From Branchiostoma floridae (taxonomy: Eukaryota > Chordata > Leptocardii > Amphioxiformes > Branchiostomatidae), in NCBI RefSeq assembly GCF_000003815.2, contig NC_049991.1, forward strand, positions 9,804,506-9,868,505: a stretch of DNA of 64,000 nucleotides. Direction: 5' to 3'. Each line of letters opens with the position of its first letter. Positions within the stretch are counted from its first letter, which is position 1. The translations under genes and the position numbers were made by a program. Below, in pieces: positions 1-52,322 of the stretch. The notes below the pieces were generated by a model. It did no database searches, had not been told where the DNA came from, and was given only the letters and a program-made list of their open reading frames with translations.

Positions 1-1853
1 AATTCTGTCCTACTACTTGCTACATATATTTGCCCAAAGGGTGGCTGTTTTTTACAGCTACAGTAACCTTCAAGTCGGTACCTTTGCAACAGCCGCCTGA
101 TTTACATTATTCAAACCAAACCGTAATTGTTTGGAGAAGAACAAGAAGAAGATAAGAAGAAGAAGAAATGGAGCAAAAAAGGGACCGTACTTCTTTAGCC
201 ACCGTAAACTTCACAATTTGACGGCTCATACTATGAAGATGACTGTTTACGATAGGTCATCACTCCTGACTTTTTAGTTACCCAGTTGATATGGCTCCTG
301 TCCGTTTGACTAAGCATTCTTGTCCATACCCTGCATTTAGCCGTTACTGCATTTGGAGAATGCTGCTAATAGCTTGCTGGCCTCGGAATGCCTCGCGACA
401 GCTAAGAAATCATCAACAACTCGAAGTTTATTTTCATTGCTTGTTGCTGCACCAATAGAGGATGATATTTTTGCATGATGCATGACACAAATTCTCTGAT
501 ATCTAGCAACGTGGTAAATAATTAGAAAGCTTACCACGGATAGCTTGAGTGTTATATTGAATGTTTGTTCACCCAACTCTCTTCTCAAGAAGGGGAGGGT
601 ATTGGAGTCCCCGGCACTCCCGGGTACACTTTAGATGTAACGTTACACTCTTTCATTGAAGTGCCTACTAGATATTCCACGTTCAAATACTTCATTCCCG
701 TTTTGCGATTGAATACTCAAGCAGAACTCATCTTGGCATTTCCCCATGTGACAACAGGCCTCTTAAGCATGTTACAAGTGCAACATATGGTACAAAAGAA
801 AGTATTAACATAGTTATTCTGTGTTTGTGATGTATTGATTGGGCGTATGTAAGTGTGTTGAGGCGGCTAACATGGAAAATTGGGGGATGATAAGCTACGC
901 GAGCGCTAGATAAGGTGCACACAAATTGCCAGCCGCTGGCGAGGAACTTGATTGGCTGAATCTTATATATTATGCTAATCAGCACGCAGCAACAGATGGT
1001 TAGCCGGTAAATTGATTTGTGACTGCGCCTTAATGACGTCATCCACTCCTTTGTGTGTACACGGTAAACCAACAAATGAAGTTGACATGTGGGTCTCGCG
1101 GCACGTACACGTGAGGTATAGAAATTACAGTCATGAGTCCTAAAAGCTAGAGGATGATGCGTGGACGCCAGAACTTTACACTTACACAAACAACCCACCG
1201 AAACATTGGGTCGCCAGGTAGCATACGATGTAAGTCACTCAACCGTAGTTCTTGTGCATTTGAATTAACTACAAAACCCCGTAACTGTCAAACCGTATCA
1301 CATTTAATGAATAGCTGAGGCTGTGAGACTGAAAACCCGCATATCAGCGCAACCCCGTGTTTCTCTCGTGTCCCCGCGCAAATTACCAGGGTGTGTTTAA
1401 TGGTAAACCTGCGCGAGATGGATTGAAATGTAATTGCACCTGGCAACGGTTTGCTCTCGGCTGAACCCATCCGTCAAGCTGCATCGTTCAAGCCCAGTGA
1501 TTTTGAATACATGTGAAATAATGCACGTTAGAATCGTCAGGTTATCGTTCCAGTACACGTTCTGAGAGTGAGCCCTGGTAGTGACCTTTCATTCAGAAGC
1601 ACAGCAACAGGTATCAAGTAGTAGGAGATATATTAACAGTTGTTCACTGGATGTCGCGCTGAGCAATGGCATTGAAAAACATTGAAAATATGGTTATCAC
1701 TAACAGTTAATTACAGACTTAAAGCCGATGCCAAAATGTCGCTTTATTTCAGCAGAGTTGAACCGGTCGCAGTTTGGTGCGCCGTCCACATCGAGAAACA
1801 TATTGAATCTTTGACTGTTCAAGCACATTGGCAGTGGGAAACTCCACAACCAC

Positions 1854-2058
1854 ACTCTCCAAGCAGAGGTTAGGCTCCGGCTGTTTTTTTAACGTTTTTT
1901 TAGTCGTTTTTATCGGGCTTTCTATTTTTTTATATCTTGCTGTGTCAAAACCTAACTGGCTGGCGTACTTCAAGAAAAATGACAAAATAGACTGCCCGAT
2001 AACAACGGCTAAAAAAACCGTTAAAAAACAGCCGGAGCCTAACCTCTGCTTGGAGAGT
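1854..2058. mobile_element. Fold-back MITE, CTCTCCAAGCAGAGG family, copy 1
   Basis: The ends are inverted copies of each other over about 35 bp: the left arm begins ACTCTCCAAGCAGAGG and continues through a GGCTCCGGCTG core and a T run, and the right arm is its complement ending CCTCTGCTTGGAGAGT. The middle carries a TTTTTATCGGGCTTTCTATTTTT stretch shared in diverged form with the copies at 15630 and 34596. No transposase is present, so this is a non-autonomous element. Open frames that cross it on both strands are by-products of the palindrome. Confidence 0.85.
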
Positions 2059-3944
2059 ACACAACCAGTCTTGCTTGTGTGGTTTTTTTTTTCATATCTG
2101 AAAGCGATTTTGTGTGCGAAGTCGACACAGGTGGTTGATTTGTGACGTATTGTGTTAATGTTAGATGGCCGGTTTGGGTCGCCAATCCACCAACTCAGCT
2201 CGAAGGTCAAGATTCTTTTTTTGTTTCAATCTTTTTGACCTTTTGCAGATCTATCTGACGTGGGTCTCTAACGTTACCACATGTGACATGGGTTTTGGGT
2301 AAAGTATCGGATTTAGTTGGAAAATCGTCTAATGGCATTCAACACACACATAAGCACTAAGTAATAATAAGTATGGATAACATTTGGCGTTAGTGCCCAG
2401 CATCATATTTAATAAAGACCACTAAAGATGACCACGCTGACTGTGTGGTTGAGATATAGTATTCGGTAGTAAAATAGCGGCCTCACATGTGTCAGGGCAA
2501 TGTTTAATGGTGGATAATGGGTAAAGAAAATCGTTGCGCGCTGGTCTGTTTTCTCGTCAGTTGGGAACGCCCGGCCAATGGCCATGAGACGTACTGTTAT
2601 GTATGAAGTAGTGGAGCGGGTACAAGACCTGACTGGACTGCGCCAAATTGCGCAAGGATTCTCAATTTGTCGCCTGAAAGTGATACTTTATAGTTTTCGA
2701 AAGACTTTATTCCATTCAGAAAATGTCGAAATTCATATATCTTACAATATCACCACTGCGGTCATGGGTCGTGAGTGAGTAAGTGATCTTATCTAAGTTG
2801 CACGCCAAGTATCAGAAGTTAACATATGCATCATTTTATCACTGCAAATCTGCATTATTAATAACTTTGATGTATGATTTATAGTGGCACCACCGATTTG
2901 ATTTCCAGCTCATTTGGGTTACATTTGCATTAATGCATCAGGTCGATCTCAAAATAAAATTGGCATGAATTCGCAAAGTTGGCAAAATTTGGCACGTTGC
3001 ACCATAAAAACCATATAGGCCACACCACGTTATCTTGCATACGACTGTGATGTAATGAGCTGTAAAAAGAGACAGATTACATATCCTTCAATTTGCAGAC
3101 ATCTTGATTAATAAGGATATATGTTCAAACGACGGGAGTTAATTGACTCATTGCGTCAACCTTGTCTTGACATTGCTTTACTTTGGTTCCTATTGGACTA
3201 TCGAAAATTGTGTTCATCTCTTTTGCATATCAATTCAATGGTAGGTATAAAATTAGCTCTTCGACGAGGTTTCTCCGGTGTCACTATAGTGGACGCTGTC
3301 TGAAACGTCTGACCGTTTCCCAACTCGTAGCCAATAACCGTTCTTTTACTCATGTTTTTACCTGTATGTCTAACCTTCATGAATAAAACAACTTCGCTGG
3401 ACTAAATAAGGAGCATGAAAGAGAAAACTAAAATAGGACGCGAACGAATGTTTGATTTTCATGTCCAACTTAAGGATTGCTCTTCCAACAAGGCAGCAAT
3501 CGATTGCTGGAACCCTTACGTATAACTAGAGAAAAGTACAAACCAGGACAAGATTTCACTCAGGGTTACTTATCGGATTGATTATGTGAACACGAAGAGC
3601 TGGAGGGGTAAAACCGTACTGTAACGTTACCCGCCACGCATACCGATTCCGCACCAGGTGACAATAACAACCCTGAAAGCGCTGCGTGTGCGGCATCCAG
3701 TGACATAAGTTCACCCGTAACACGTCTGTAAGTGCAAACACTGACCCAGGTCCCGGCTTTCTTGAAACATGCATTTTGCCTGAAGTCACAGATGATGAAC
3801 TTTGCATGGCTTCCTGTTTGGAAATCTGTAGAGCCACCAGACTGGATGACAGGGGAATGGAAAACACATCAGAGGGCTGACTTTTCGATTGATTTGGTAG
3901 ATCTTTGGTTGGTTTAAATGGCGTAGGTGAACTGCTGTAGATTT

Positions 3945-4060
3945 TTGCTGTGTCGTAGTATTGTCTGCCGTAATGTTGTGGTGTCGTAATGTTGTCTGCC
4001 GTAATGTTGCGGTGTCGTAATATTGTCTGCCGTAATTTTTTGGTGTCGTAATGTATGTAT
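3945..4060. repeat. 31-bp tandem repeat, about 3.5 copies
   Basis: The unit reads approximately GTGTCGTAATGTTGTCTGCC followed by GTAATGTTGTG, and is repeated with one or two changes per copy. It produces spurious open frames on the minus strand rich in Arg-Gln, Tyr and Asp. No gene is nearby. Confidence 0.8.
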
Positions 4061-5204
4061 GGCTGGTAGTGGTTGGCCAGAAAGACGTTCTATGCAATGG
4101 CAGTGTTGCACAGTACTAGGAATAACTGTTCTTAAAATTATCTTGTTTTGTATGAATGCACGAATGAATTATGAAAGGAGAAAGACCACTCCCATAGACG
4201 CAGGTGCCTCAGGATAATTTCGTCAATTTTAGAAAATAGAAAAGGCTGAAAGGGCAAAAATCGTATTATATTTTGTAAACTAGATAATGTCTTTTTGAGG
4301 CCGGCTTTACTTTATCATACATACGTAATACCAGGCTGATATCCCAATCAGTCAACGGGTATATTGCGGATCTCTGTAATTCAGCTACACATGAAATATG
4401 GGGTCCCTTCATTTATCAAACCTGATTTCAAGACAGAAGTGCAATAAAGTTAAGATCATCATTAATCAACGAACATTAAGAAGATTTTCGCTGATCCCAA
4501 TGTGCAAATAAGATTTGATTAAAACAGAAATATACCTGGCTTGTACGCGCCGATATGCTGACAGGATGTAGGTATCTTTATACAATCTTATATTTTGTGT
4601 GGGTATGCTACATGACATGTATGTGAGTATTAACATGCATTAATATAAAAAACATGTTACCCAGCAAATATATTAACAAAACTACAAATAAAAAAATAAC
4701 TATGAATAGTATAGGTAGTGTAGATTCAGTTGTCAAATTAATTCATACATCATTTTCATTGTTAAGTATAACCACGCTGTATATCACTAGTATCTTTAGG
4801 GTATTGTTCGTAATATAAAGTTATCACAATTGATAAGAGGTCTTTTTTTGCGAAATCCAGCTCGAGGCCTGATTGCAAGTAACATAAAAAGACCCGACAA
4901 ACATAATAGCATGTTTTTACTCGAAAATGTTGTCTCTAAAGTTTCAAACTATTTGGTTCTACTTCTATGTGCATGTATTCAGCAGGGTCTACACTAAATT
5001 ACTCAACGTCAAATCTAATTACCCATTATCCGCCATGGGTTCCCCCCATTCTCTGTCGAGATTCTCTTCTTCTGAACTTGAACAGATGAAATATTTGAGT
5101 CGTTACAGGCAAACATAATGTTCTAATTCACGATGAAGCTAGCGATATACACTCAGCACAAAAGGTTTGGAATATCAACTTCAGTAGGGTAATTTCAGCA
5201 CTTT

Positions 5205-5467
5205 TGTGACCCCCTGACGTAAGCAGACCTGTTGCTTGTTAGATAACTTTACAATCATAAGAAACTCTAGTCAAAAGTGCTAAGATATACTTCTATGTTC
5301 TGCATACCAAAGATTACATGAAAAAGGATTGATTGAATCATTGACACCCGCGACCGTACTAATCGGACGATACAGTGACACAAGCAGGGAAATTGGGCCA
5401 CATTATTTGTGTGACCCACTCACGTTAGCAGGCCTGGTGCTTGTTCCTTGAGTTTACAATGATAATG
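5205..5467. repeat. Diverged direct repeat, 206-bp spacing
   Basis: A block of about 57 bp at 5205-5262 (GTGACC, GACGTAAGCAG, CCTG, TGCTTGTT, TTTACAAT) recurs at 5411-5467 with the same order and spacing and roughly 80 percent identity by eye. It is probably an old local duplication or part of an unrecognised repeat. Confidence 0.55.
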
Positions 5468-6904
5468 AGTTTGATAACATTGGAAAGGAAATCACACACG
5501 CTTTCTATTGATACATTGAAAATTTGAAATTGATGCAGAAACAACGGAAATATGATGTAAAAAACGTTTTGTGCCGAGTTTAGTTGAACACCAACATATG
5601 GTGTATAGGTGGCGTTTTCACAGCCCTTGGGGCACAAAGAAGGAAACCCGCATATGTTCGGCAAAATCAAACACCACAACCGCATCTTGTAATATTGGTG
5701 AGACTTTGCCAATATAACTCACGCTGTGGTCATACGGAGAAAGCCGCTATAAAAGGTACCAATTAGCCTGCAGCATGTTAGAATGCACTCTTCTGTAGTC
5801 ATCAATATGTACACGCTTGGGGTGGAAATAAGAGCTTTCATGTTCCAACCCTAGAATAACGTTACATCTTGGCAGATATTCGGTTGCAGACATTCGTTCA
5901 TTACTCTTTAATGTGATATTCAGTCGGCGTCTTGGTGGGTACCCTGTCTTGGAAACTTGCCCAGACTTGTATACATCCTTGGCCTTCTGGAGCTCTTGTG
6001 GTTACGCGACAAAACTACGGCTTATCCGAAAACCCTCCCGATAGACGAAGTTTATCCTAAAGCCATCTTAAAGTCAGCACTGAAGTTCAATTTCACAGGC
6101 AAAACCTTGGCATACACAGTGGATCACGCCAACGGCGTTATATGCTATACACATGGCTGGTTAGAGTCTTAACGTCTTGTGCCTCAAAACTCGACGATGG
6201 AACAACTTCACACTGTTATATGTACTGGCTAAACCCTCGGCTCCTTGTTATTTTCCATGAAAACTCTGATATAAAAATATAATGTAAATTTGTCATTCCC
6301 TTGTTCAGTTGTCCTCCTTAGAACTTTTTTAAATGCCCCTGCAGTTCCAGAGCAACCTGCTAAGGAGATCCAAAACATGTACACCATGTATTCCCTGCGT
6401 TACAAGTTATCTGCCACCAAAAAATAAAGACTACAGCGCATCCAGGTCACAAGGTATAAAAAACGGAATTTCTGTTGCAGTACCAAGTCACATACAAGGG
6501 AGCCCAAAATTGACCTTTACCTTCGGCTTCCTAACACCTACCCACATACCAAATATCATCGTAATTTATCCAGAGGTTTATGAGTTAATGCTGACCACAA
6601 ATATCCGGAAAAACAAACAGACACACAAACACACAGACAGACACACCAGAAAACATTTTTCATGGAGATAAATATCTCTCGGCTCACCAACTACGCTCCC
6701 CTTTATGCGGTAAAATATTTTTCGTAGTGCTGCAACCGTTGTGCGCTGAAACCGGAAGTGACGCGAGTATACGTGACTCCTGACCTTTCTGCTTGCTTCT
6801 TGGAATATGTTACTGCGCAGACTCCAACACTTCGTGTGATTCGCTCGGGCAAGGAGGCTCGGGCTACCACCGGTGTACTACATCTTTAATAGAGAGCATC
6901 TTTC

Positions 6905-9120
6905 ATTTAACTACAGGCCAGGTGAGACACTGTACATGTCAGTAAGGTGTGTTATCTTTTCATGCAGGCCAAGTGAGACGCTGTACAGGTGTGTAAAGTG
7001 CATTTCCATTGTCTACAAGTACAGCCCAGGTCAGACCCTGTAACGTTACATGTGTGTATTAAAGGGTTTTTCCAGCGTCTACAGGCCAGGTAAGACACTG
7101 TAGAGGTAGCTAAGGTGTGTTTGAACAGTGTTTCCATTGTCTACAGGCCAGGTGAGACTCTGTACAGGTGTGTAAGGTGTGTTTCCATTGTCTACAGGCC
7201 AGGTGAGACTCTGTACAGGCGTGTAAGGTGTGTTTCAATTGTCTACAGGCCAGGTGAGACCCTGTACAGGTGTGTAACTTACTGTAAGGTGTGTTTCCAT
7301 AGTCTACAGGCCAGGTGAACCCGTACAAGGGTGTAAGGTGTGTTTCAATAGTCTACAGGCCAGGTGAGACTCTGTACAGGTAACTAAGGTGTGTTTCCAT
7401 AGTCTACAGGCCAGGTAAGACACTGTAGAGGTAGCTAAGGTGTTTCTCCATTGTCTATGGGCCAGGTAACACACTGTAGAGGTAGCTAAGGTGTGTTTCC
7501 ATAGTCTACGGGCCAGGTGATACCCTGTACAGGTGTGTAAGGTGTGTTTCAATTGTCTACAGGCCAGGTGAACCCGTACAAGTGTGTAAGGTGTGTTTCA
7601 ATAGTCTACAGGCCAGGTGAAACTCTGTACAGGTAACTAAGGCGTGTTTCCATAGTCTACAGGCCAGGTAAGACACTGTAGAGNNNNNNNNNNNNNNNNN
7701 NNNNNNNNNNNNNNNNNNNNNNNNNNNNNNNNNNNNNNNNNNNNNNNNNNNNNNNNNNNNNNNNNNNNNNNNNNNNNNNNNNNNNNNNNNNNNNNNNNNN
7801 NNNNNNNNNNNNNNNNNNNNNNNNNNNNNNNNNNNNNNNNNNNNNNNNNNNNNNNNNNNNNNNNNNNNNNNNNNNNNNNNNNNNNNNNNNNNNNNNNNNN
7901 NNNNNNNNNNNNNNNNNNNNNNNNNNNNNNNNNNNNNNNNNNNNNNNNNNNNNNNNNNNNNNNNNNNNNNNNNNNNNNNNNNNNNNNNNNNNNNNNNNNN
8001 NNNNNNNNNNNNNNNNNNNNNNNNNNNNNNNNNNNNNNNNNNNNNNNNNNNNNNNNNNNNNNNNNNNNNNNNNNNNNNNNNNNNNNNNNNNNNNNNNNNN
8101 NNNNNNNNNNNNNNNNNNNNNNNNNNNNNNNNNNNACAGGTGAGTAAGGTGCGTTTCCTTTGGCGACACACCAGGTAAGACACCGTACAGGTATTAGGTG
8201 TGTTTCCTTTACGACACACCAGTCAAGACACCGTACAGGTAAATTAGGTGTGTTTCCTTTGACGACACACCAGGTAAAACACCGTACAGGTGAGTAAGGT
8301 AAGTTTTATTTGACTGTAGACCAGGTAGGACATCTACAGGTGAGTAAGATGTGTTTCCTTTGGCGACACACCAGGTAAGACACCGTATAGGTGAGTAAGG
8401 TGAGTTTTATTTGACAATAGACCAGGTAGGACATCTACAGGTGAGTAAGGTGCGTTTCCTTTGGCGACACACCAGGTAAGATACCGTATAGGTGAGTAAG
8501 GTGAGTTTTATTTGACAATAGACCAGGTAAGACACCGTATAGGTGAGTAAGGTGTGTTTCTTTGACTACAGACCAGGTAAGACACCGTACAGGTGAGTAT
8601 GGTGTGTTTTCTTTGACTATGAAACAGGTAAGACACTATACAGGTGAGTAAGGTGTGTTTTGTTGACTACAGATTAGGTAAGACACCGTACAGGTGAGTA
8701 AGGTGCCTTTGCTTTGCCTATAGACCATGTATGGCATTAAAAAGGTGAGTATGGTGTCTTTCCTTTGCCTATACACCAGATAAGGCATTATACAGGTGAG
8801 CAAGGTGTTTTGGCTTTGCCTATAGACCAGATAGGGCATTATACAGGTGAGTAAGGTGCCTTTCCTTTGCCTATAAACCAGATAGGGCATTATACAGGCA
8901 AGTAAGGTGTCTTTCCTTTGCATATAAACCAGATAGGACATTATACAGGCAAGTAAGGTGCCTTTCCTTTGCCTATAAAGCATATAGGGCATTATACAGG
9001 TGAGTGAGGTGCCCTTCCTTTGCCTATAGATCTGATAGGGAAATACACAGGTGAGTACAGTCTCATAGTGTCTTTCCTTTGCCTATAGACCAGATTAGGC
9101 ATTATGCAGGTGAGTATGGT
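6905..9120 (+). repeat. 51-bp minisatellite array, forward half
   Basis: Tandem units of 51 bp. Three subfamilies follow one another. Units from 6905 to the gap contain CTACAGGCCAGGTGAGACTC. Those from 8136 to about 8640 contain CGACACACCAGGTAAGACACC. Those from about 8640 to 9117 contain CTATAGACCAGATAGGGCAT. All keep a CAGGTGAGTAAGGTG core that matches the splice-donor consensus. Unit length is a multiple of three (17 codons), so long repetitive open frames arise without being genes. A 452-base N run interrupts the array. Confidence 0.95.
7684..8135. other. Assembly gap (452 N)
   Basis: A run of N inside the minisatellite. Array sequence on both sides shows the gap is within the repeat; true length is unknown. 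Confidence 0.99.
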
Positions 9121-10872
9121 CATTTGGAAAGACACCATAGTAACTGTACTCACCTGTATGATGCCTAATCTGTTTTATAGGCAAAGGAAGATATCTTAGT
9201 GACCATACTCACCTGAATAATGCCTTACCTGGTCTATAGGCAGAGGAAGGGCACCTTACTCACCTTTATAATGCCCTATCTGCCATATAGGCAAAGGAAA
9301 GACACCACAGTGATCATATTCACCTGTATAATACCCTATCTGGTCTATAGGCAAAGGAAAGACACCATACTTACCTGTATAATGCCCCATCTGGACTATA
9401 ATCAAAGAAGAGACATCTTACTCACCTGTATAATGCCCAATCTGGTCTATAGGCAAAGGAAAGACATCTTACTTGCCTGTATAATGCCCTATATGCTCTA
9501 TAGTCAAAGGAAAGACACCATAGGGACCGTACTCACCTGTGTAATGCCCTATTTGGTCTATAATCAAAGGAAGGGCACCTTACTCACCTGTATAATGCCC
9601 TAAATGGTCTATAGGCAAAGGAAAGACATGTTTCTCACCTGTATAATGCCCTACATGGTCTATAGGCAAAGGAAAGGCACCTTACTCACCTGTATAATGC
9701 CCTATCTGGTGTATAGGCAAAAGAAAGACACCTTACTTAACTGTATAATGCCCTATGTGGTCTATAGGCAAAGGAAAGGCACCCTATTCACCTGTATAAT
9801 GCCCTATCTGGTCAATAGGCAAAGGAAAGGCACCTTACTCACCTGTATAATGCCCTATCTGGTCTATAGGCAAAGGAAAGACACCTCACTCACCTGTATA
9901 ATGCCTTATCTGGTCTATAGGGCAATGAAAGAAACCTTACTCACATGTATAATGCCCTATCTGGTATAATAGGCAAATGAAAGACACCTTACTCACATGT
10001 ATAATGCCCTATCTGGTATATAGGCAAAGGCAAAACACCTTACTCACCTGTATAATGCCTTATCTGGTCTATAGGCAAATGAAAGACACCTTACTCACAT
10101 GTATAATGCCCTATCTGGTCTATAGGCAAAGGCAAAACACCTTACTCACCTGTATGATGCCTTATCTGGTCTATAGGCAAAGGAAAGACACCGTACTCAC
10201 CTGTATAATGCCTACATGGTCTATAGTCAAAGGAAAGGCACCTTACTCACCTGTACGGTGTCTTACCTGGTCCATAGTCAAATGAAACTCACCTTACTCA
10301 CCTGTGCGGTGTCTTACCTAGTCTGTAGTCAAAGAAACACATGTTACTCACCTGTACAGTGTCTTACCAGTTTCATAGTCAAAGGAAACACACCTTACTC
10401 ACCTGTACTGTGTCTTACCCGGTGTGTTGTCGAAGGAAACACACCTTACACACCTGTAGATGTCTTACCTGGTCTATAGTCAAATGAAACTCACCTTACT
10501 CACCTGTACGGTGTTTTACCTGGTGTGTCGTCAAAGGATACACACCTTATTTACCTGTAAGGTGTCTTGACTGGTGTGTTGTTAAAAGAAACACACCTTA
10601 ATTACCTGTACGGTGTCTTGACTGGTGTGTCGTTAAAGGAAACACACCTTAATTACCTGTACGGTGTCTTACCTGGTGTGTCGTCAAAGGAAAGACACCG
10701 TACTTACCTGTTGAATGCCCTATCTGGTCTATAGGCAAAGGAAAGACACCATACTTACCTGTATAATTCCCCATCTGAACCATAATCAAAGAAAAGACAT
10801 CTTACTCACCTGTATAATGCCCTACATGGTCTATAGGCAAAGGAAAGACACCTTACTCACCTGTATAATAGT
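9121..10872 (-). repeat. 51-bp minisatellite array, inverted half
   Basis: The same 51-bp family as 6905-9120 but in the opposite orientation: each unit reads TTACTCACCTGTATAATGCC, CTATCTGGTCTATAGGC, AAAGGAAAGACACC on the plus strand. The subfamily order is partly mirrored: the CTATAGACCAGATAGGG type lies nearest the junction, then about 10240-10700 carries the CACACCAGGTAAGACACC type, followed by a short return to the first type before the array ends near 10872. Plus-strand open frames at 9220-10285 encode a 17-residue repeat and are treated as artefacts. Confidence 0.95.
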
Positions 10873-12678
10873 GGAAATAATTAATCATTATGTTACTTCA
10901 TGAATATGAGGCTAAGACTATTGGTAAGTTTCTACACTTTTCTCCATCCACACTCCAGGTGTTCTTCTAGCTCATTGTTACAATCTTCAATTACCAGTGT
11001 CATATTTGGACAAATTGACAAAATGCTATTGTTGACAAACTTTTTGAGTCGTGAGAGTAATATCACCTGCCAACACTTGTTATAGTGAACTATTATATTT
11101 TATACTGTTCCAAGGTGGACATTGGATTGTCCCTGATCAATTTTTGTGAAATACTCCTGTTGGGTTGATCCCATATCTTTGTCTTATTTCATTCTTCTCA
11201 AAATAATTTGTCAGTCGGTTTGATTTTGACAGGCTTTTTTTTACATTGCAGGTACCAGTGACAACATCTATGCAAGATGGAAACCTTCATTAAAAACTTC
11301 CTGCATTTCTATTACCCAATTTGTTGATATGATATTCCTAGCTTGTCTTGAAAGTTTGGATTTTTGTAGCCTATATACATATATATATATCGCAAAGTAT
11401 CTAAAACACCACTGTACCANNNNNNNNNNNNNNNNNNNNNNNNNNNNNNNNNNNNNNNNNNNNNNNNNNNNNNNNNNNNNNNNNNNNNNNNNNNNNNNNN
11501 NNNNNNNNNNNNNNNNNNNTTTTGTGCGCGTATTTCGATCCATTCCCCTATTTCACAAGTTTTTTTTTTTTTCAAAAGTCCATAAGCTCAATCATGGGAT
11601 CGTATTGGGAATATGCGGTAACGTTATATTAGTTTTACATTCACAGATGTTTGAAAACAGTCATTTAAAACTACACGTGTATTACAAAGACAAATGAACG
11701 AGGAATTGTCTATGTTCTTGCTTTATTTATCTTAATTCAGTGACTTACCAATGAACAGGCGGAACAAAATTACCGTTAGTTTAGAAATACAAAATAAAGA
11801 TATACTGGTCAGTAAATAACTTATATAAATTAACTTACTTATTAATAAGTAATATTTATTCCCTGTCCATTACTAACACTGTAATGTCTAAACATATACC
11901 ATTTCATTCATTCAGACTTTGGATTAAGCTGATAAACCAAGCACTGGTTTGTACTGCTTTCCGGGACAGGGTGACAAACAAAGGAAAGTACTAGTACTTC
12001 ATAAAGAGTAACGTTAACGTAAATATACATTGTAACGAGTCGCTTACAACTTCTGTATTAGCTCTGCATTTACGCATTATTATAGGAAAACTATTTTACA
12101 ATGCATATCTTTGAGGTATAAGATGACATTGTAATAACTGAGGACTAGTGCGGAGGATTACGTCTTCTGGCTTACTTTATTTGTTAGTAACACCGACTGA
12201 AGCTAGCGGGTATCGATAATTTACATGGTCGTAAGTTTGATGTGGATACAATGCTAAGTTACAACCCCAAGGTGTCTTTCAGTACGGCATATACCATGGT
12301 CTAGGTTACTATATGGAATACAATGATAAAAAGTAAATACCAAAAACCTTTAGTGGCATTTACCTTTAGAGTTGCTGCACGCTTTGACACATACATGTAT
12401 AACTTTAACTACCTTAACAAATACAACTATAAACTAGGGTTAACTACAAGCGACCCTCACCGTAACTGTGCTACTGATACGCATATTCTTATTCAGACTT
12501 TTGTAACCAATCAGCTCTCAATACCTTTTGATCACTTCATTGTCTGTCTTGAAGAGACGATGGGTCACTTACATGACTTATCATGACTCCAAATATGGTC
12601 ATACCTAATCAATACCTAATTACATCACAGATCATGACCGATAGAATACTTCAATTGGCACATATTATGTCTTGGCGT
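10873..12678. other. Gap region downstream of the death-receptor gene
   Basis: No exon is recognisable. The stretch lies 3' of the minus-strand death receptor and should contain its untranslated tail. It holds a 100-base assembly gap at 11420-11519, a short TA-repeat tract near 11378-11390 and otherwise AT-rich unique-looking sequence. Confidence 0.6.
11420..11519. other. Assembly gap (100 N)
   Basis: Exactly 100 N, the usual placeholder for a gap of unknown size. Confidence 0.99.
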
Positions 12679-15600
12679 CTAAACCATCTCGGGCCACTGC
12701 ATTTTTCCAACCTGACGGGCGATAATGGGGTGGAAGGACCGGCGGAGTCCCTGCTGAAGACCCTCAAGGGAGGCTTTGTTACCGTTCATTTGCTTCCATT
12801 CTAGTGAGAGAAGAAAAATTGACATTTTTATGAAATCTACGTTGAATACATGTGCGCAATTGGAAATGTGAATCTATCATCGGATAAGCTTTGAAAACCT
12901 ATTTTGTTGAAATACACAACATTGCATACACCATACATTTTTGCATATGTTTGAAATTACTTCTATTATGAGAATTAATAGAATGATTATTCCTTTTGAA
13001 TACTGTCTGTATGATTACATATGGTTTCCTGTTTATTCATATGCAACATAAAAATTTCTTACTCAGGAGCATCTGAAAAGCCATTTCTTTAACGTCCGGA
13101 CGATGCCTTTCGTAGATGCTGTCAAGGTCGGCCTGTGTCGGGAGGTTACCGGGCAGATGTCTTGCGAGACGCGACCAGCGACTGCCGACATGGTCAGCCA
13201 CATAGTTGAATACTTGTCTCAAGTCAACGTCTGTGCGGGTATAAAACATGTAACAATGGTTGATAAAAAGGGTAAAATCACAAAGATTATCTTTAGAAAT
13301 CGATAACTGTAATATTGTCTGAAATATGCAACCAAAGTTTATTTGTGTTAAACGTCAAACAGAAAACCGATGCGTAAATATTGAACATGTTGTTGACGAA
13401 CTATTACGAACTTTTGTTGATGTTGCTTTCCGTCTCCTTATTTGGAGTAGATTGGTCTTTGCAGCATGCCACGATGACAACAGCGGCCACAGCAATGCCC
13501 GCCAGACTAGCAAGACCGCCAGCAAGAGGTACAACGAATGATTCACTCTCCGCTAGGTCATAGGACAGCGTGTCATTGGCTAATGATGAGTCTAAGTCCC
13601 ATTTTGTTGTGTCTGAAATAAACAATAACAGAAGCATTAAGGGCCTGGTTCAAAACGATAGATATATTTCGTAAGTAGCTTGTCAGTGATACGGTTTCAT
13701 AATGTTTTGTCATTTGAACATCTACGCGTTACATGCTTGATGGCTTGATGGCAAAACAAAGAGAAATGTATCCAGAAAGCCATTTAGATTGCCATATGGC
13801 AAACTTGTAATCTTGATTTTTTTTTTTTAAATAAATGTTTGGAAACGTACTTCCTGTACTACTAGTGCTGGTAGTAGTCTTCTGTGTTGTTTCATTGTGG
13901 TCAGGATTTCGCAGTGATGTAGCATTGCCATGTTTGGAGTCTGTTGTACCTGGAATTGACAAAAATACATCTGGTGAGTACAAATGTATAGGGTTTTCTT
14001 TCATGTGTACCGCATCGCATTGAGTTGTAAAGGTAACTACTTCTATTCAAACATCTATCGGGTATGAAAAGAGAGGGTATAATCACAATTTGATTGAGGG
14101 AAATACCTGTGCCTGTTTTAACAGGCGAACACATCGCAGGTCCGTTTGACCCTCGGTACACCTGTCTTGTTCCCGGCTTGCAGTCACAGCGCCGCGGTGC
14201 GGTTGGAGAACACTCCTGCAGGGTGACCAGGTTACGGTCATCATCACAGGTATCGCCGCAGCTGAGACACCTGTCACCGTTGTTGTAATACCGCATGTAG
14301 AAATTGTGGGGACACTGTTCACATATCGTGCCATGTTCAGTGTCACAGTGCCTGGTGATTGGATAGAATAGTAGTCAAATTTGAAACAACTAGACATAAG
14401 TATGATAAGTATCACTTAATGTAACAGGAATGGTAAACGTTAACAAATAGGCCATGTTATCAAAATGTTTGACATGAAAAATGGCTTACTTGACAAGAAA
14501 ATGACCTGGTTCGCACAGATCACATGTCAGCGACTGTTGTCCATTGTATTCTAACGGGTAGACGCCAGGCATGGACCGGTATATCGGGGGTGAACGATGT
14601 TGCGCAATAGCGATGACGTCATCTCCCGACGATCGTGGCGAAGTCTGGAATTTGAGAAAGAAGCAAGTTTTACGTTTACGTTAAAAGGGCAGCGGGTTGT
14701 GTGATAAATTTCTCTAGATTGGACTTTGCTGACATCTATTATATGTAAAGCAAACAACGAATTGATAGGTACAAACATTGTGCAAGCTATAGTGTGAGGG
14801 TTTGTCGTGTTTTAAACTAATTGTATTGATTCTTTACGTAAACATAAGCTGACGAGAAGACTGGAGCATTTCCATCAGTATATGTATCCTATACCTTGGG
14901 GAATTTTTAGAGTGCTGCAAGCTAGAAGTAGGTACGGTCTTACATTGTGTAAGTGTCATAGTCATGTGATCCGCAAGACATCTATACTGTACACAATAGC
15001 AGGCATGGGTAAACTCAATTTGTGGCAGATCATGGACTTTGGACTCTAGAAATCACCTGTTGGCGCAAGTCCAGACACGCTCACAAATTCTAGATCATTC
15101 TACTAATTGTGGCGCAAATGTTTCACAAAATATAAAAGAGACACTTTACTGGAAAGCTAGATTGCATCCACACACGCGTACGCACACACACACGCACACA
15201 CACACACACGCATACCATCAAACTTTCAGTCCCATTAGTCGAAATATTTGCTCCACTAAACTGTAGAAACAACACTACATCAGAAACACAGTGGATTTTT
15301 AAACCCACGTCACAAAGTCATCGGATTTTGAATCAGTTTGTATTGATACCTTCCACCAGGCCTAACAAGTCTCTAAGCGAAATTTCACACACAAGACAAA
15401 GCCATGGCAAACCGCACATACCATAAATAGTCATATGAATAGATTGTAAGAAAATGGTGTGACCACACAAAACACCATAAATGTCGGAAATACAAAATTG
15501 TCCCTACAGAAATATTTCCATTCCGCTTCATCTTTAACACTTAACATCATTAAGAATCTTATCAGAGTCAATGGCAACATTGGCTGCAAATGTAGATGTG

Positions 15601-30491: not shown

Positions 30492-33400
30492 ATGGATTCG
30501 CCTCAGCCTCTGGAAGAATTCCTCCCAGTTCAAAACCAGGAAACAAATCTCCTGGAACTAAACCTGACCGGGAAAGACTTAAACCAAATCCCACAAACAG
30601 TTCTGCAGTACACAGATTTGGAGGTTCTAAAGCTTTCCTTTAACAAGCTGAAGACTTTGCCAAAAGGCATTGCCAGACTGACCAAGTTGAAATACCTATG
30701 GCTGGACTTCAATCTGTTTGAAGAATTTCCTGAAGTTGTGTGTGAGCTGACTTCACTAGAACATTTGTACCTCTCACAGAACAAACTGAGAAATGTATCA
30801 CCAAGAATCACACAGCTTAAGAACTTAAAGAAGCTTTTACTCCATAAAAATGAACTGACTACACTGCCAACTGAAATATTCCATATCCTAAGTCTTATTG
30901 ACTTGCATTTCTCAGAAAACCAAATAGTTGAGCTACCAGAAGATATTGGACTCCTCGAGAACCTCACAGTCCTTCGTGGCTGGGACAACCTGATAAGGTG
31001 TCTGCCAGATTCAGTTTGTAAACTAAAGAAGCTCAGACTTATTGACTTTGCCATGAATCAGCTGCAAGCACTACCTGGTGGCTTTGGTGCAGCACTGAGT
31101 GGAGCAGAGGTGAGCCTATACGGTAACCCTTTAGTGCAGCCTCCATTCGAGGTGTGTAGTCAGGGCATTCAGGCCATTGCAGATTACCAAGACCAGCTCA
31201 GCAAAGACTCAGCAGCTGTGGAAGACACGGTCGACCCCTGCCTTAAGATGTTGATCATTGGCGAGACCTGTGCTGGTAAGACAAGTCTGAAGAAAGCTTT
31301 GGTTCTGAACAAGTTTCAACTTGTAGATGTGCTGAGCAGGACACATGGCATCGAAATCACACCCTGGGACACGGGTAGTGAGATCAAAATCAACATTTAT
31401 GACTTTGGCGGTCATGAGGCATATTTCCTGACCCATCAGTTGTTCCTGACACACAGTGCACTCCACCTTTTGGTGGTTAATCTCAGTGGCTATCATGAAA
31501 GCAGGTTTTACACAGAGATTGGGAGGTGGCTGGATATGCTTGCAGTACGTGTGCCTGGGGCCATTGTGAGAATCGTCGGAACTCACATTGACAAGATGTC
31601 ATTAGAGGAAGTGGATACAAAGTCTTCTCTGATCAGTGATCAGATAGCAGCTTACCAAGATAACAGAGATGCCACTGTACAGGAAAAAATAGACAAACTT
31701 GAGCACAGTATGGCCTCCCCAGATGTGATGAGCTCCTACAGTATGAAAACAATGTTTCAGGAACTGAATGAAAGGCTGGACAAGGCAAAGAAAGCAGCCC
31801 ATCAGAAGCTCTGTATTGGACAAACCGTGATTCCTGTGAGTTCTGCCTCAGGACTAGACGGCATTCAAGCCTTGAGAGAAGAGATTGTTAGCATGGCATG
31901 TACTGGCCAGTACTTCCCAGACCTGAGAAGGAAGCTACCCCGCAGCTGGATTATTCTGGAGAGGTTACTCAGTGCAAAGCGTGATGAGGCAAACTGTCCG
32001 CTGTACATAACACTAGAGAACTGCATGCAGATGGGAAACAGTGAAGGTCTATCAATCGAGTCCTCCCTAATCAATTCTTTGCACTACCTTCACAGAACTG
32101 GAGCTGTCCTTTACTACGAAGCCTTGCCTAAGTTTGTCTTCCCTAACCCAACCCAACTCATTGACATCTTCAAAGTCCTCCTCAAAGACCATGCTGAGAT
32201 GGAGGCAGAATTCTTAAAGGTACCGAGGGTAACTGCAGGAGAACTGCAACGGATTAACGATGGCTTCACTCACCAGGCAAACCTTCCGCACAAAGTTGTG
32301 TCAATGTTATTGAAGCAACACACAGAGCAGAGTGAGGAAGGGCTGGATCTCTTACTGAGATTGATGCTGAACTTTGGTATCTGCCATATGCTTCCTGAGG
32401 CTGACAAAAACTCTCTTGCCAGGGCATACAGTATGCCATACAGGACGTACCATTTTCCTTGGTACCTCAGAAGGTTGAAACCCGCCAATCTACAATGGCC
32501 AAGGTGTCCACAGGAAGATGAAGAACACATTGAAATTGTGTGTGAAATGGCAACACCCAGCCCCTGGGGTTTATTTGAGAGATGGTGTGTGCTCTCAACA
32601 AGGCACCTGAGTTACAGACAAGCTTGGGAAAATGGCATGTATGCCTTCAGCGAAACTGACATGAGCGTTGCCGTCATGATGCAACATGTACAGGAAGGTG
32701 GAGCTTCTTCTCTGCATGTCGCTGGAAGAGGGACAAGAGAGAGACTGACAACAGTGTGGACTACAGTTAAGAGCATTGTCAGTGAGCTGAACACTCTGCT
32801 GAAAGAATGGCCAGGTATTCTTGTTTATTGCTACTGTATGAATTATCTTTCCCCTGGATTTGTCATCCAAGTATATATAGATGTGCTAGCAGAGGATTTT
32901 GTCACTTTGATCATTCAAGCTTTTTTTTAATACATGTATGTGGAAGGATTTTGTTTTCCTCATTCTGATACATTACTCATAAAAATTGTTAACATATCTG
33001 TAATCTTGCTTTGCATGATTTCATGTACAGGACTGTACACAGACTCGATCATCCGCTGTGCCCACTGTATGAAGACCTGCACAGACAACCCAGGATACTT
33101 CAATGGTAAGGCAGTACATGTATTTAAATTTTCCCTTTTAGACTAATCTGTATTCTCATGTGTTTCGAATAACGTGACACATAGCATTGATAAATGTGCT
33201 TGTGTATAGAATCTATGAAAGCATGCAGTTCTAAGATAAAATTTGTTAATCTCAGTACTCGTATTTTCCAGCAGCCTTTGGAATTATCGTAGCAGATCTA
33301 CACATAGCAAGGAAAATTTTTAATGTTTTTAAAGCTGGTATTTTGACTATTACATGTATGTTGAGATGACAATAATGAAGTTGAAGATGAAATAATAAAG

Positions 33401-40695: not shown

Positions 40696-41918
40696 ATGAA
40701 GCGTGGCAGGGGGCGGCCACCCAAAAGTCCCTTTGTCTCAATCGATAGCCGAGTGAAACGGTTCAGAAGTGGCCGTGGCGGCGGCGGCGGAGATGCGGGC
40801 AGCAGTGGCGGGACCCCGGCAAGTTCCCGGTCCAGCACGCCCGTGCACTCGGGATCCTCCAGGACCCCGTCTCGGGAGATGCGGAGCCGGGCCCGGGAGG
40901 CGGCACAGCGAAGCAAGCAGCTAATCCACGAGGTGATGAAAGTGGTGGGTGGTGACGATGAGGAGGAGGATGTGGACGATGTGAGCGACGACCTGTCAGA
41001 GGAGGAGTCGGACGAGTCCGACTATGCTGAGTCCGAGTCAGCTCTGAGTGTCTACTCCGAGAGTAGCTTCAGCACGGTCAGCAGCTCCAAACGGAGGTAC
41101 ATCCGTCACCCCCGCCCAAAATCCCCCGTGGTGTTCGATGATGAGCGCGAGGTACCGCCCCTGACCCTGCCCAAGTCAGGCGAGGACCTCCTCCTACCCA
41201 CAGAACACCTGATGGACGCCATCGCCGTGTATGAGGTCATCAGGCACTTCAGGATCATCCTCCGAGTGTCTCCATTCAGGTTTGAAGATTTCTGTGCTGC
41301 ACTTCTCAGCCAAGAGCAGTGCAGCCTCATCGCAGAAATCCACATAGCATTGCTCAAGGCTCTGGTTCGCGAGGACGAACAGAACAGCACGACTTTCGGT
41401 CCTCACGATCTAAAAGACAGCATCAATATAAAAATGTATTATCTTGATGCTATGACCTGGCCAGAGCTGGTACGTTGTTATGTGGAGAGCGACAAAGAAT
41501 TTCGTGACGTCTTGCCCTCATGCAGTGGCCCAGACTGGCCGTATGTACCACTAGATGACAAGTTGAAGGTGCTCCGCCTCCTGACTGACCAAGTGCTTGT
41601 TTCCAATGCTATACGTGACTATATTTACACAGAGGGCACCGTGCAGTATGACGACCATTGTCGGGTATGTCACAAACTTGGTGACCTCCTGTGTTGCGAG
41701 ACGTGCTCAGCTGTGTACCATCTGGAATGTGTGCGGCCACCGCTAGAAGAGGTGCCAGAAGATGATTGGCTGTGTGAAGTTTGCGTCGCCCATCAGGTGG
41801 GTGGTGTCACCGACTGCGTCCTGGAAGCAGAGAAAACGGGCCAGATGAGCCGCCAGGAGCCGCTAGGGTACGACCGCCATGGACGGAAGTACTGGTTCCT
41901 ATGCAGACGTGTCGTGGT
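40696..41918 (+). CDS. BPTF: BPTF exon 1: AT-hook, DDT domain, PHD1
   Basis: Start ATG at 40696 in CpG-rich sequence. Residues 2-12 are an AT-hook ([11 protein letters not shown]). A Gly/Ser-rich stretch and a strongly acidic block (about 85-115) follow. The DDT domain spans about 170-230 ([16 protein letters not shown], then [11 protein letters not shown]). PHD1 is at 322-366 with Cys4-His-Cys3 ligands (CRVC, CCETC, YHLEC, WLCEVC). The exon ends inside a Val codon, and exon 2 continues the BPTF-typical WYYST block. A 3.5-kb intron follows. Confidence 0.95.
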
Positions 41919-44900
41919 GTAAGTACAGTTTCATCAGTTTGAAAACCATCTACAGCAGCAGTTTGTAATGATATTACTTTCCAATTCCAGGCATTGAAAA
42001 AAGGTGCATCATAGTATTTGCAAACACTACTATTGTATTGATGATATTAGAATAGCTGTTTGTTCGTTTCTCCAATTGGCAAGTCGTGCAACAACATTCC
42101 ATTTCACCTTTATTAAAAAGGTTGTCCAGTTTTCAGATATCTGACATGATAGATGAGTTTCCTTGACCACCCCTGTTTGATATTTGAGTGGTATAGTCCA
42201 GTTGTGTTTGCCAGATGTCTCATGGCCATGACTTTTCCTCAGCAGCTACATGTGTGACTTTACAAGGCAAAGGTAACTCTAAACCAAGAACGAACAAGCT
42301 TATAACTTAAGTAAAGTCTGAAAATCAAGCGCAATAACATGTAGCTGCATGAGCATAGTGTGGGCAGGTACGGTGGTCAGATGCTATCTTCTTAAGGTCA
42401 CAGGTTACCCAATGTAAAGTGAATTTCTTATATTTGTTATTATGGAGGTTTAGTTTGATGATAGGGAAAAGTTCCAGGGTCTCCAGAGACTAAAGAATAC
42501 CAAAAATGTTCACAAATTAATCAACATTAAACCCAATTAGGGAAGAGCAACACATAATCAGGTCGTTAGAAATCAGATACATATAATTATTTCATTCAGA
42601 AATACACCTTATGTATTCAGATATAACTGTGAACCAGTACTAGTGTGAAGAGGGTCAACCTGTCAGAAGTAGGATAGTGTAGTTTTGATTTTACCTCATT
42701 AACATAATTTATGTTGCCTGTCTGATCCACAGGTTGTCCAACCTCAGGCATTTATCTTCGGAAAATAAAAGCTAAGAAATGCATCTATGAGCCACAAGAC
42801 TGTTACTAGTACATTATGAATATGTACACGAATTAATCGATCAATTACCTTCGAGTCAAATCTAGAGATATGTTACAACAGCCTAAATCATTAATATTCT
42901 AGAGAATCTAACAAAGTGTGTTGTGACATTATTGGTATAGAAACTCTACCGATGAGGTTAAGGAAAACTCAAATAAGGCTATAAGTTACTCAAAAATTAA
43001 AACAAGAGAAAGGGAGATACAAGAAGATACCCATGAATGCCCCTCTGCTATATCTTAATGGAATAGCCCTTACAGTAACGCTCATCAGAAGGTAATGAGT
43101 AATAATGGCATTATGGCACTCCTGCTGGTAATGTTGACTTTTGTATGACAGGAGGGTGGTAATGGAAATTAATATCTTAAACATGAGTAACATAGAAATT
43201 ATGCTAGTGCAATGTGCTTATGTCAGATGCTAATTCGGAATATAAAGTTGTTTTCGAGATGTCTAGTGCCAAAATAGGTCTGGAGTTTGTAATCGCTTGC
43301 CATGGTGGAACAATATTGAAGATACATGTATCAGAATGCAGGTTTTAATTATATCAAGATTTAATATACATGTACATAAACTTGATAAACTCATAAAGGT
43401 ACAATTGCAAGAAAGGCAAAAATTTACCTGCAGTGCTTATTCTTATTTGTACTTGCTATTTCATAATGGAATTTGGCAAGGACCGACCAGAACCACAAAA
43501 ACCAGCAAGGCAGATATATTGGCATGGCTCAACATTCTGTCTGTGTTACTTAGTAGCAGGGGCTCGAAATACTGGGTGCGTGTGCACCCAGGTGCTCCCA
43601 AAATTGGAGCTGTGCACCCAATTATTTTCTGTGGGTGCACAGGGTGCACCCAAATATTTTCTTACGTTTATGTTATGTATGTAAAGATATCAAAGTATAC
43701 TAAGTATACATCATTTTCTTGACGTCTAAGTGATAGAAAGATTAAAAATGTCTGTCATGGTACTTGTTTAAGAATTTGATAGCTTAACTCAGTTTTATAA
43801 CTTAAATTTGAGTTGTGCACGCCAAAATTTTTCGGTGCACCCAATTTTTTAACTGGGTGCACCAGTGCACCTATTCCCCAAAATGAATTTCGAGCCCTGC
43901 TTAGTGTTTGTGTTACAATGTATGCTGGAGTGGACTACCACATCGGGTTGGGAATACATGACATTGTAATGCTGCACTGCCTTTGCCCATAATGAAACAA
44001 ATCATTTGGAATGATTCATTTTGGTATGACTGAGCAAAGGCATTGCAGAACAAAATGTATTTCTATTGGAGTAAAGCCAAGTCGTTCTGTTTTTCTACAG
44101 TGTACATGAATATAGTGCCCAGAATGTTTCTGCATAATATCTAGATGCAAATAAATATAATGTAGGTCATGCACATTGTACATAAACAATGTTCAGTCAT
44201 GACTCTAGGAGGCTTTCTGTAACATCGTTTTATATGGATCAGTGGTGTGATATGAAAACTGATTTGTGTTGAATTAGATTTTAGTGCACACTACAGTGTA
44301 TATACAAAATGTACATGACATGACTGATTTAACTTTTTTAAATTTACACTTTGGAAGAAATATAGATACAATGGTCAATATTGATAGTATCGTTGAGCTA
44401 AATACTTAAGGAAGGGGAAAATTTCCAATTTTTTATCATTCTTTTTGTCTGTATAGATGTATCTAAAATACAGCTAAATTGTACAAAGTGTGTGTGCACA
44501 ATTGACAATGCACATGTACATGTACATCATAGTTTTTTCATACATAGTGTGTCATTTTAGAAACACGATGAAATAATATGACTGCCAGAGATTGCCAATC
44601 CTCCCATCCATAATGCGTGTTATCGGTTAGATATTGGCATTCATGCCATACACAATGACAAGTCATGTTGAGATTCTGAATTATATGTATTGCAGGTACA
44701 TGTACTAGTACGTAAAGTAAAGAAGGCAATCTGTGAAAGTCTGAGATTGAGTGAGTTTTGGTTCACAATCACGTGATTAGGAACACAGGTAATTGTAGGG
44801 GTGTGGTCGAAGGGAAGTCTTCATATGCTTCATTGACCATACATGAAATGTGGTATGGTTACTAGTAGCCTCATGCATGACAACAGCATATAGAAAATTG

Positions 44901-50900: not shown

Positions 50901-52288
50901 GAAGACCACCACTCAAAGTTCCACCCACACAGTTGTAAGGACTCAACAGTCGGGTACTGTTGCTCAAACATCAACTGTTAGTAGTTCAATGGCTGCTACT
51001 GTCAATGCCACAAAAACTGAAACTAGTTCCAAAGTATTGAGTTCTGGAATTGCAAGCAAAGGTACTTCAAGTGTTGTTACTTCTCAAGCATCTGCTGTGA
51101 AAGCATCTCTCACTGTTTCGAAGTCCGATGGCGACGTAACGTACTCGACCACAGGAAAGGTGTACCTTGCAAAGTTTACCAGAGTCAAGAAGAAGAAAAG
51201 TCAGAAAGTTTTACTTCCAAGTAGTAATAAGTTTTCCACTCGAGTAGGGAAGAAGAGCATATTTATCCTCCCACCCCAAGAGCTCAGGAAGCTTGCCAGG
51301 CGAGGGGCAAATAAGGAAGTTGCGTGCTTCAAGTATGATGCCAAAATGGTGGGTGCCCACTGGCCTTATTTAGCTCCAAGGCCAACCTTCCGGCTTGCTT
51401 GGCGGTACCACGTGCAAATACTGCGTTCACTGTCGTCCGTGGCCTCGCTGATACGAGTCCTGTGGGCGTGTTTGCGTTGGGAGGACATGAGTATCAAGCC
51501 ACCGACGGGGACATCCAACACGATAACGACAGAAACAGAGATCACTACGACAGAAATTACCAAGAGAAGAGACGTGGGGACGTTTGGTCTGCGGTCAGAG
51601 TACTGCGTGAGGAAGATCATCTGTCCAATCAACACACCTTCTCAAAAAGGTACTCTAATTCTTGACATTTTTGTTCAGTTTGCAGTTTATTTGATGACTG
51701 CTTCACCATAAGATTGAAACCTGTGTTTGCATTACTGTACAGTATGTAATGTAGTGCTACTGCAAACCACTGTTAACACTCCATTTCGTCCCTAATAATT
51801 GCAAAATCATATCCCTGCAAACATAAGTATTGTTTGTGTTCATTGTGTTCTGCTGTTTTTCTGTTATGTGATACATGTATATCTGACTGAAATACTTGGT
51901 ATACATCTACATGTATTACTGAATTTTTGTGATGATGCATGTTTCAATGTGAAATATAGCAATGCAAGCTGAAGATACATGTACTTTTTTGTATTTGTCT
52001 TGATGGAGTAAAAGAGAGATCATTAGTGATGTTCTCCTATGGGTACCAAAATATGGACGTGCAAGAGTAGGAAGACCATGTAAAACTTATCTACACCACA
52101 TTTGAGAAGACACTTACTGTTTAATGGAAGATCTGCCCAAGGCAATGAATGGAGGATAGTGTTGGATGGAGAGATAGAGTCATGTTCATCTGTGCAACCA
52201 GCACGACAGTATGGTGATGATTATGATGATATGTTTGCATATGGAGGATAGGGATGGATAGAGGGAGAGAGTCATGTTCATCCGACCA

Positions 52289-52322
<34 letters not shown>

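Follow-up and report, generated by a model that had tools for sequence, protein, structure and literature searches.

The 64-kb stretch of Branchiostoma floridae DNA analysed here as a whole (the window, C13:9804506-9868505) contains a minisatellite of 51-bp units that switches strand midway, from + at 6899-9120 to - at 9126-10863. This block very probably forms the inner part of F1, a foldback-type DNA transposon that is non-autonomous and spread with both arrays as one piece. The inversion itself, proposed by the first-pass annotation, was confirmed in a unit-profile search, which yielded 68 matches in the block, 34 on the + strand (6899-9105) and 34 on the - strand (9126-10863), with a weak one nearest the centre (E 0.062), and a single, likewise weak match in the rest of the window (E 0.24). 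Tandem Repeats Finder (TRF) reported 51-bp periods at 7128-7680, 8136-8971, 8285-9120 and 9202-10869, and the left and right parts have 3872 10-mers in common in opposite orientation versus 42 in the same orientation. The array does lie where the annotation had placed its feature, at 6905..10872, but the element is larger: from a transposon end at 6709 it extends past the array, through unique sequence of the transposon, to at least 11419, its right end being lost in or beyond the gap at 11420. Its parts are the following (L numbers denote stretches fetched from the same genome, C numbers contigs).

6700..6708, no strand: presumed left copy of the target-site duplication (TSD), 9 bp, CCTTTATGC, assigned by the 9-bp duplications at other F1 copies
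6709..6786, +: terminal inverted repeat (TIR), short-side end, GGTAAAATATTTTTCG..., 74.7% identical to the inverted opposite ends of L010, L009, L014 and L022
6787..6898, +: remaining short side
6899..7683, +: array of subfamily A, 15 unit matches, from unit cutting and the unit profile
7684..8135, no strand: assembly gap of 452 N inside the left array
8136..9120, +: left-arm array, subfamilies B1 then B2, from unit cutting and the unit profile
9107..9156, no strand: inversion centre, about 50 bp, nearly identical in L009, L010, L014, L018 and L022
9126..10863, -: right-arm inverted array of B2-like, B1-like and B2-like units, in mirrored order
10864..11419, +: part of the transposon's long side, 98.2-98.7% identical over its length in L009, L010, L014 and L018, and partly matched in L025 and L022
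11420..11519, no strand: assembly gap of 100 N

Positions 6709-6898 are about 97-99% identical in L009, L010, L014 and L018, 6709-7683 are 98.2% identical to L010, and 10039-11419 are 99.1% identical to L009; the intervening left-arm segment 8136-9120 finds its best places in L009, L010, L014, L018, L029, L030 and, over part of its length, L031 at 89-95% identity. Where the window has its 452-N gap, L010 contains 554 bp and L018 351 bp of further same-orientation units. On the far side of the element, a TNF-receptor-like gene at 12680-14374 (-) comprises a death domain (PF00531, E 1e-9 after two exons read by eye were joined), a frame resembling a membrane-spanning segment, and a cysteine-rich region that is matched weakly, below the cut-off; the transposon lies about 1.3 kb beyond the end of this gene, with an N gap between them. 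The window further contains a single-frame LRR-Roc-COR protein at 30492-32930 (+), a DDT-PHD protein at 40696-41922 (+), which we take to resemble BPTF, and, at 52149-52399, a 91-bp tandem repeat of 2.7 copies with a GAT run inside (TRF).

For the comparison of unit order, the window units were cut by wrap-around alignment, and 66 units of at least 45 bases were compared. In the unit-level alignment, the colinear score of the mirrored order was 1.17, versus 0.51 for the reversed order; 1000 shuffles of the right-arm order gave a mean of 0.49 (s.d. 0.08) and a maximum of 0.94, and with shuffles confined within subfamilies 3 of 1000 attained the observed score. Mirrored unit order in the window thus exceeds chance, and the same order was found in L010, L014, L018, L027 and L011, where, as in the window, none of 300 shuffles reached the score. 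The significance in the window and these five other two-armed copies (L021, discussed below, departs from it) supports the earlier proposal that the inverted duplication took place after the subfamilies had formed. The number of unit matches per arm ranges from 29 to 62 in L009, L010, L014, L018 and L029, L009 and L029 containing N. The suggestion that the two halves could pair as RNA also held up: the minimum free energy calculated for the window arms is -1652 kcal/mol, versus -876 kcal/mol with the right arm flipped to the same orientation, so that the arms, if transcribed, are predicted to form a strong hairpin. We found no support for protein coding in the unit; its antisense frame is open over stretches of 100-148 aa but is disrupted by units of 50, 52 and 59 bp. 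Splice-donor-like sites, pointing inward in both arms, occur in about half of the window units (6899-10863).

That the element is mobile is indicated by its distribution in the genome, which we searched (513 Mb, 431 contigs) with a 101-nt tandem of the unit. At least 799 matches were obtained, and among the matches listed about 30 separate places were counted by eye. We fetched 20 stretches and, with the window, examined 21 for array orientation: a + array is followed by a - array in 18 of them (in some with N between), the opposite order occurs in none, and three carry units on one strand only: two of these, L013 and L025, adjoin N, and the third, L015, is a gap-free array of 78 units. The stretches on C19, C10, C7, C15 (0.22 Mb) and C2 (34.009 Mb) had been chosen for visible matches on both strands, which introduces a selection bias; among the other 15 fetched stretches, convergent arrays were present in 12. 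Later additions to the set include L030 and L052, each with a convergent pair at its end, and L031 and L033, with + units only, beside N gaps. By their flanks and ends, the copies fall into four families.

F1: the window, L009, L010, L014, L018, L022/L029, L030, L031 and L033, and L025 by its long side
F2: L011, L012 (part), L017, L019, L023, L024, L026, L027 and L028; arrays inside outer arms
F3: L016, L021 and later L052; own ends, long side about 80% identical to that of F1
F4: L015; L020 is alike only in part

In F1, the arrays lie between a short side (about 190 bp) and a long side (about 2 kb); Pfam recognised no protein domain in the latter. The outer arms of F2 measure about 1.15 kb, and the two arms of a copy share 95-98% identity in L027 and in L011. 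Similar unit consensus sequences were obtained for L010, L027, L023, L021 and L015. In the last of these (C8:18784398-18788343), 56-bp inverted repeats surround the gap-free array; the ends and TSD of F4 could not be pinned down there.

F1 ends, GGTRAAATATTTTTCG, are present at nine places, seven of which have both arrays (the window, L009, L010, L014, L018, L029 and L030), the other two being interrupted by N gaps. When we searched for the patterns of the short-side terminus, GGTAAAATATTTTTCG, and of the long-side terminus, GGTGAAATATTTTTCG, we obtained 15 matches at the nine places (9 forward, 6 reverse), and the reversed control pattern gave none in either direction. The inverted termini of F1 span about 80-90 bp and are bordered by a perfect 9-bp TSD at five of the six two-ended places (L029, L030, L010, L018+L032 and L031), the sequences being TCTGTCTCC, CCGGCGTAG, CGAGAGATG, CCAGTTCAC and AGGCCAGGT. 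At the sixth, L014 on C2, the flanks are unequal, the right one being the left flank of L033, 23 kb away, which suggests a later rearrangement or tandem duplication between copies. In this region (C2:33.99-34.01 Mb), the F1 ends of L014 and L033 lie 16-23 kb apart, with one target-site flank common across both. F2 shows a perfect 9-bp TSD in all five two-ended copies (flanks read by eye), located outside unequal 5-bp terminal motifs, and F3 a 9-bp TSD in both copies for which the two flanks are in hand, L021 and L052. Where flanks were read out, the sequences outside the termini differ among copies. The TSDs of F1, F2 and F3, and of a transposase-bearing element on C7 described below, fall within the 8-11 bp given for Mutator-like elements (MULEs) (PMC6446971), and we regard F1 as having Mutator-like traits.

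A different origin of the units could be sought in the amphioxus 'mirage', in which an exon-intron boundary is duplicated in tandem, as described for amphioxus globin genes (PMC3087553). AGGT[AG] is indeed found in 64 of the 66 full-length window units and [CA]AGGT[AG]AGT in 34 of them, and the donor G and T columns rank 2 and 17 of 51 in conservation. The acceptor-like G, however, is the commonest base in just 67% of units, below the mean column value of 82%, so that the splice signals taken together show no clear constraint. Apart from a weak TNFR region outside the block, Pfam gave no match in six frames of positions 1-15000 (E up to 0.01), and it recognised no coding exon at the block edges, where a domain-less exon would escape it. 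With the units being part of a transposon, a mirage is very unlikely. It is extremely unlikely that the head-to-head junction represents a chimeric join of one tandem array. The two N gaps in or near the block would fit such an artefact, but the arms differ in about 14% of aligned bases and are therefore not one sequence read twice, and the same junction and flanks are assembled without N in L010, L014 and L018, which refutes the artefact for the family and leaves little room for the assembly error that the first-pass annotation had named as its own refutation. We give as little credence to a local minisatellite that was inverted in place and is not mobile, as the same annotation implied. The mirrored unit order and the existence of a single-orientation array elsewhere (L015) are in line with this, but the same inverted structure, centre and unique flanks recur at other places, with sharp ends and, at five F1 places, 9-bp TSDs.

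The F1 copies also differ from a locally homogenised array in how their units are related. In six of seven copies, the left and right arms of the same element agree in 85-87% of aligned bases, L030 reaching 78% with large gaps; among 15 pairs of copies, identity is 89-99.5% over the innermost 1000 bp of the right arms and 78.5-99% over the innermost 985 bp of the left arms. In a unit-by-unit comparison of six copies, the average best match of right-arm units was 96-99.5% in the same arm of other copies versus 89-91% in their own opposite arm; for left-arm units it was 93-99% versus 83-86%, the latter figure being depressed by subfamily A, which is confined to left arms. In all 60 comparisons the average favours the same arm of another copy, with single units reversed (up to 17 of 50). 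As units are closer to the same arm of other copies than to their own opposite arm, the inversion predates the spread of F1, and the arms have not been homogenised since, contrary to the earlier view that the array was 'then homogenised'.

Where the transposase might come from is indicated by the relatives of F1. With the window's transposon end as a 156-nt query, we obtained 23 genome matches: short ends of F1 account for 9, its long ends for 7 and diverged relatives for the other 7. Two of these relatives are each situated no more than 7.5 kb from a MULE-domain match, of which 27 were found in this genome. The element on C7 (C7:8212823-8223579; 10,757 bp, or 10.76 kb) has 55-bp termini (96%) that equal those of F3, a perfect 9-bp duplication, CCGCTCTCT, and frames that match the Pfam models MULE (PF10551), ZSWIM RNaseH-like, ALS2CR8, SWIM and PHD; the PHD finger PF00628 lies in coding frames of both the C7 element and a relative on C9. 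Near one end, the C7 element contains the inner short side (91% identical over 97 bp to the L010 version) and 11 unit matches of the same orientation, and this array aligns with the start of the F1 array at 83.6% over 494 bp. In the coordinates of L048, which covers the C7 element, the TIR lies at 1324, the 3' array at 1516-2177 on one strand and the domain-bearing frames from 3684 up on the - strand; a second array, of related units of about 61 bp in the same orientation, lies near the other end. A pattern of the F3 ends gave 13 genome matches and its control none, and on C17 such a match precedes a second transposase-bearing copy, 90% identical to that of C7 over 6.1 kb, for which one end was found and the other was not. 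The C9 relative gave comparable coding matches; no 51-bp array is present in the 9.9 kb examined, which include 680 N. Inside its MULE region, at 6253-6684 (-) of L049, a frame with a Mos1-type helix-turn-helix (PF17906) may represent a nested mariner-like insertion. No F1-F4 ends were detected among 12 short loci fetched of the 27. MULE-type frames are also found a few kb from an F2 copy ending at C18:7781513, at 2350-5377 of L047 (C18:7783349-7786376); a 3.2-kb N gap lies beside the frames, and this MULE is not a demonstrated partner of the F2 copy. A Helitron or Helentron (HINE) carrying the arrays, suggested by the frequency of tandem arrays between two modules in HINEs (PMC7492417), has next to no chance of being correct, given the terminal inverted repeats, the 9-bp duplications and the MULE transposase domains matched by the associated coding elements.

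It is most likely that the array arose in a transposase-bearing element and that a transposase-less derivative inverted, lengthened and spread it. A minisatellite would have arisen beside the 3' end of the transposase-bearing element, and a derivative would have lost the transposase gene; replication template switching (fold-back) may then have duplicated the array in inverted form, with mirrored unit order, after which unequal exchange would have altered the unit numbers, and transposase supplied in trans would move the non-autonomous element. By analogy with Galileo, in which two repeats inside the long ends contain extra transposase-binding sites (PMC3688188), the arrays may act as repeated transposase-binding sites, which for F1 is only a guess.

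Several observations weigh against F1 as a mobile unit with two inherited arms, or against its descent as outlined. The right terminus of the window copy, which in L010 forms the last ~1.47 kb, is absent and was not found beyond the 11420-11519 gap, nor does a second CCTTTATGC 9-mer occur in the first 16 kb of the window, the right TSD being unassembled; the missing end should read ...TATTTCACC followed by CCTTTATGC, if the copy resembles the others. L031 and L033 have one array each, next to N gaps, and the 78-unit array of L015 keeps a single orientation without any gap. In L021 (F3), mirrored order is not significant, with 22 of 300 shuffles reaching the score. Compared between copies, the inner parts of some left arms show less similarity than the left and right arms of a single element do, although the unit-by-unit comparison suggests that this reflects gain and loss of inner units. 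The F1 termini differ from those of F3 and of the C7 element, and mobilisation of F1 by the C7 transposase is, for this reason, only inferred. Finally, the unit was found to have no motif in common with the F1, F2 and F3 termini, with scores no higher than those of shuffles, which gives no support to the binding-site role.

The F1 arrays match the minisatellite downstream of the candidate parent's transposase frames, and a hairpin transcript could thus give rise to small RNAs that target the parent. A comparable case is Mu killer, an inverted duplication that silences MuDR in maize. We consider it improbable that the foldback element is a natural trans-silencer of its parent, acting through hairpin small RNAs against the parent's 3' region; if it were, non-autonomous copies would both exploit and restrain their transposase source. 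Mirrored arrays at unlinked places are, in addition, likely sites of ectopic recombination and of assembly gaps. According to PMC6446971, evidence for MULEs in chordates is limited, and a report of a MULE from Branchiostoma floridae could not be confirmed there; the 27 MULE-domain matches in this genome bear on this point.

In the literature searched, we found no paper on foldback transposable elements in amphioxus, on LanceleTn, on foldback/TU elements in sea urchin or on MULE-NOF with foldback; Repbase was not searched, and a prior entry for these families is possible. Drosophila FB elements have long internally repetitive inverted repeats. So does Galileo of Drosophila (PMC3688188), as do the elements described here, but the domains associated with the latter are those of MULEs, unlike in FB and Galileo. 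Tetris, a foldback element of Drosophila virilis, resembles F2 in having an outer flanking domain followed by tandem repeats within inverted repeats, and like the window element lacks a transposase; its units measure 220 bp, its authors found no autonomous partner, whereas a candidate related element was found here, and they proposed it as a seed of satellite DNA (PMC4079207). Amphioxus mirages, from the same animal group, also consist of tandem units with AG/GT signals, but span gene exon boundaries, whereas the units here are transposon repeats (PMC3087553, PMC3902484).

Closer counterparts are found among Mutator-related elements. Four traits are given for Rehavkus, a group of MULE relatives: the TSD measures 9 bp and the TIRs 26-400 bp, the transposase contains a PHD finger, and a minisatellite precedes the 3' TIR (PMC6446971); in Rehavkus-1_TC of Tribolium a 164-bp satellite repeat is located in the inverted termini (PMC10218199). 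All four traits are present in the C7 element, which we file as Rehavkus-like by these listed traits rather than by a tree. The C7 element departs from Rehavkus in its SWIM finger matches and in the second array near its 5' end, and F1 in being non-coding and in its mirrored internal arrays; moreover, PMC6446971 lists Rehavkus from Arthropoda and Annelida only, whereas the present host is a lancelet. The Tm1 Mutator/Foldback elements of root-knot nematodes likewise combine 9-bp TSDs with composite inverted repeats of tandem units, share with F2 asymmetric short terminal motifs outside the inverted repeat, and comprise both non-autonomous and transposase-bearing members; their units are, however, 13-15 bp long and located near the ends, as compared to 51-bp units with up to 62 matches per arm and arms that are joined almost directly (PMC3169594). 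Accordingly, we assign the window element to an already known kind of transposon, as a new foldback member that is non-autonomous; for it, a single genome displays readable steps, from a transposase-bearing element with single-orientation arrays to derivatives that have spread with an inverted and longer array.

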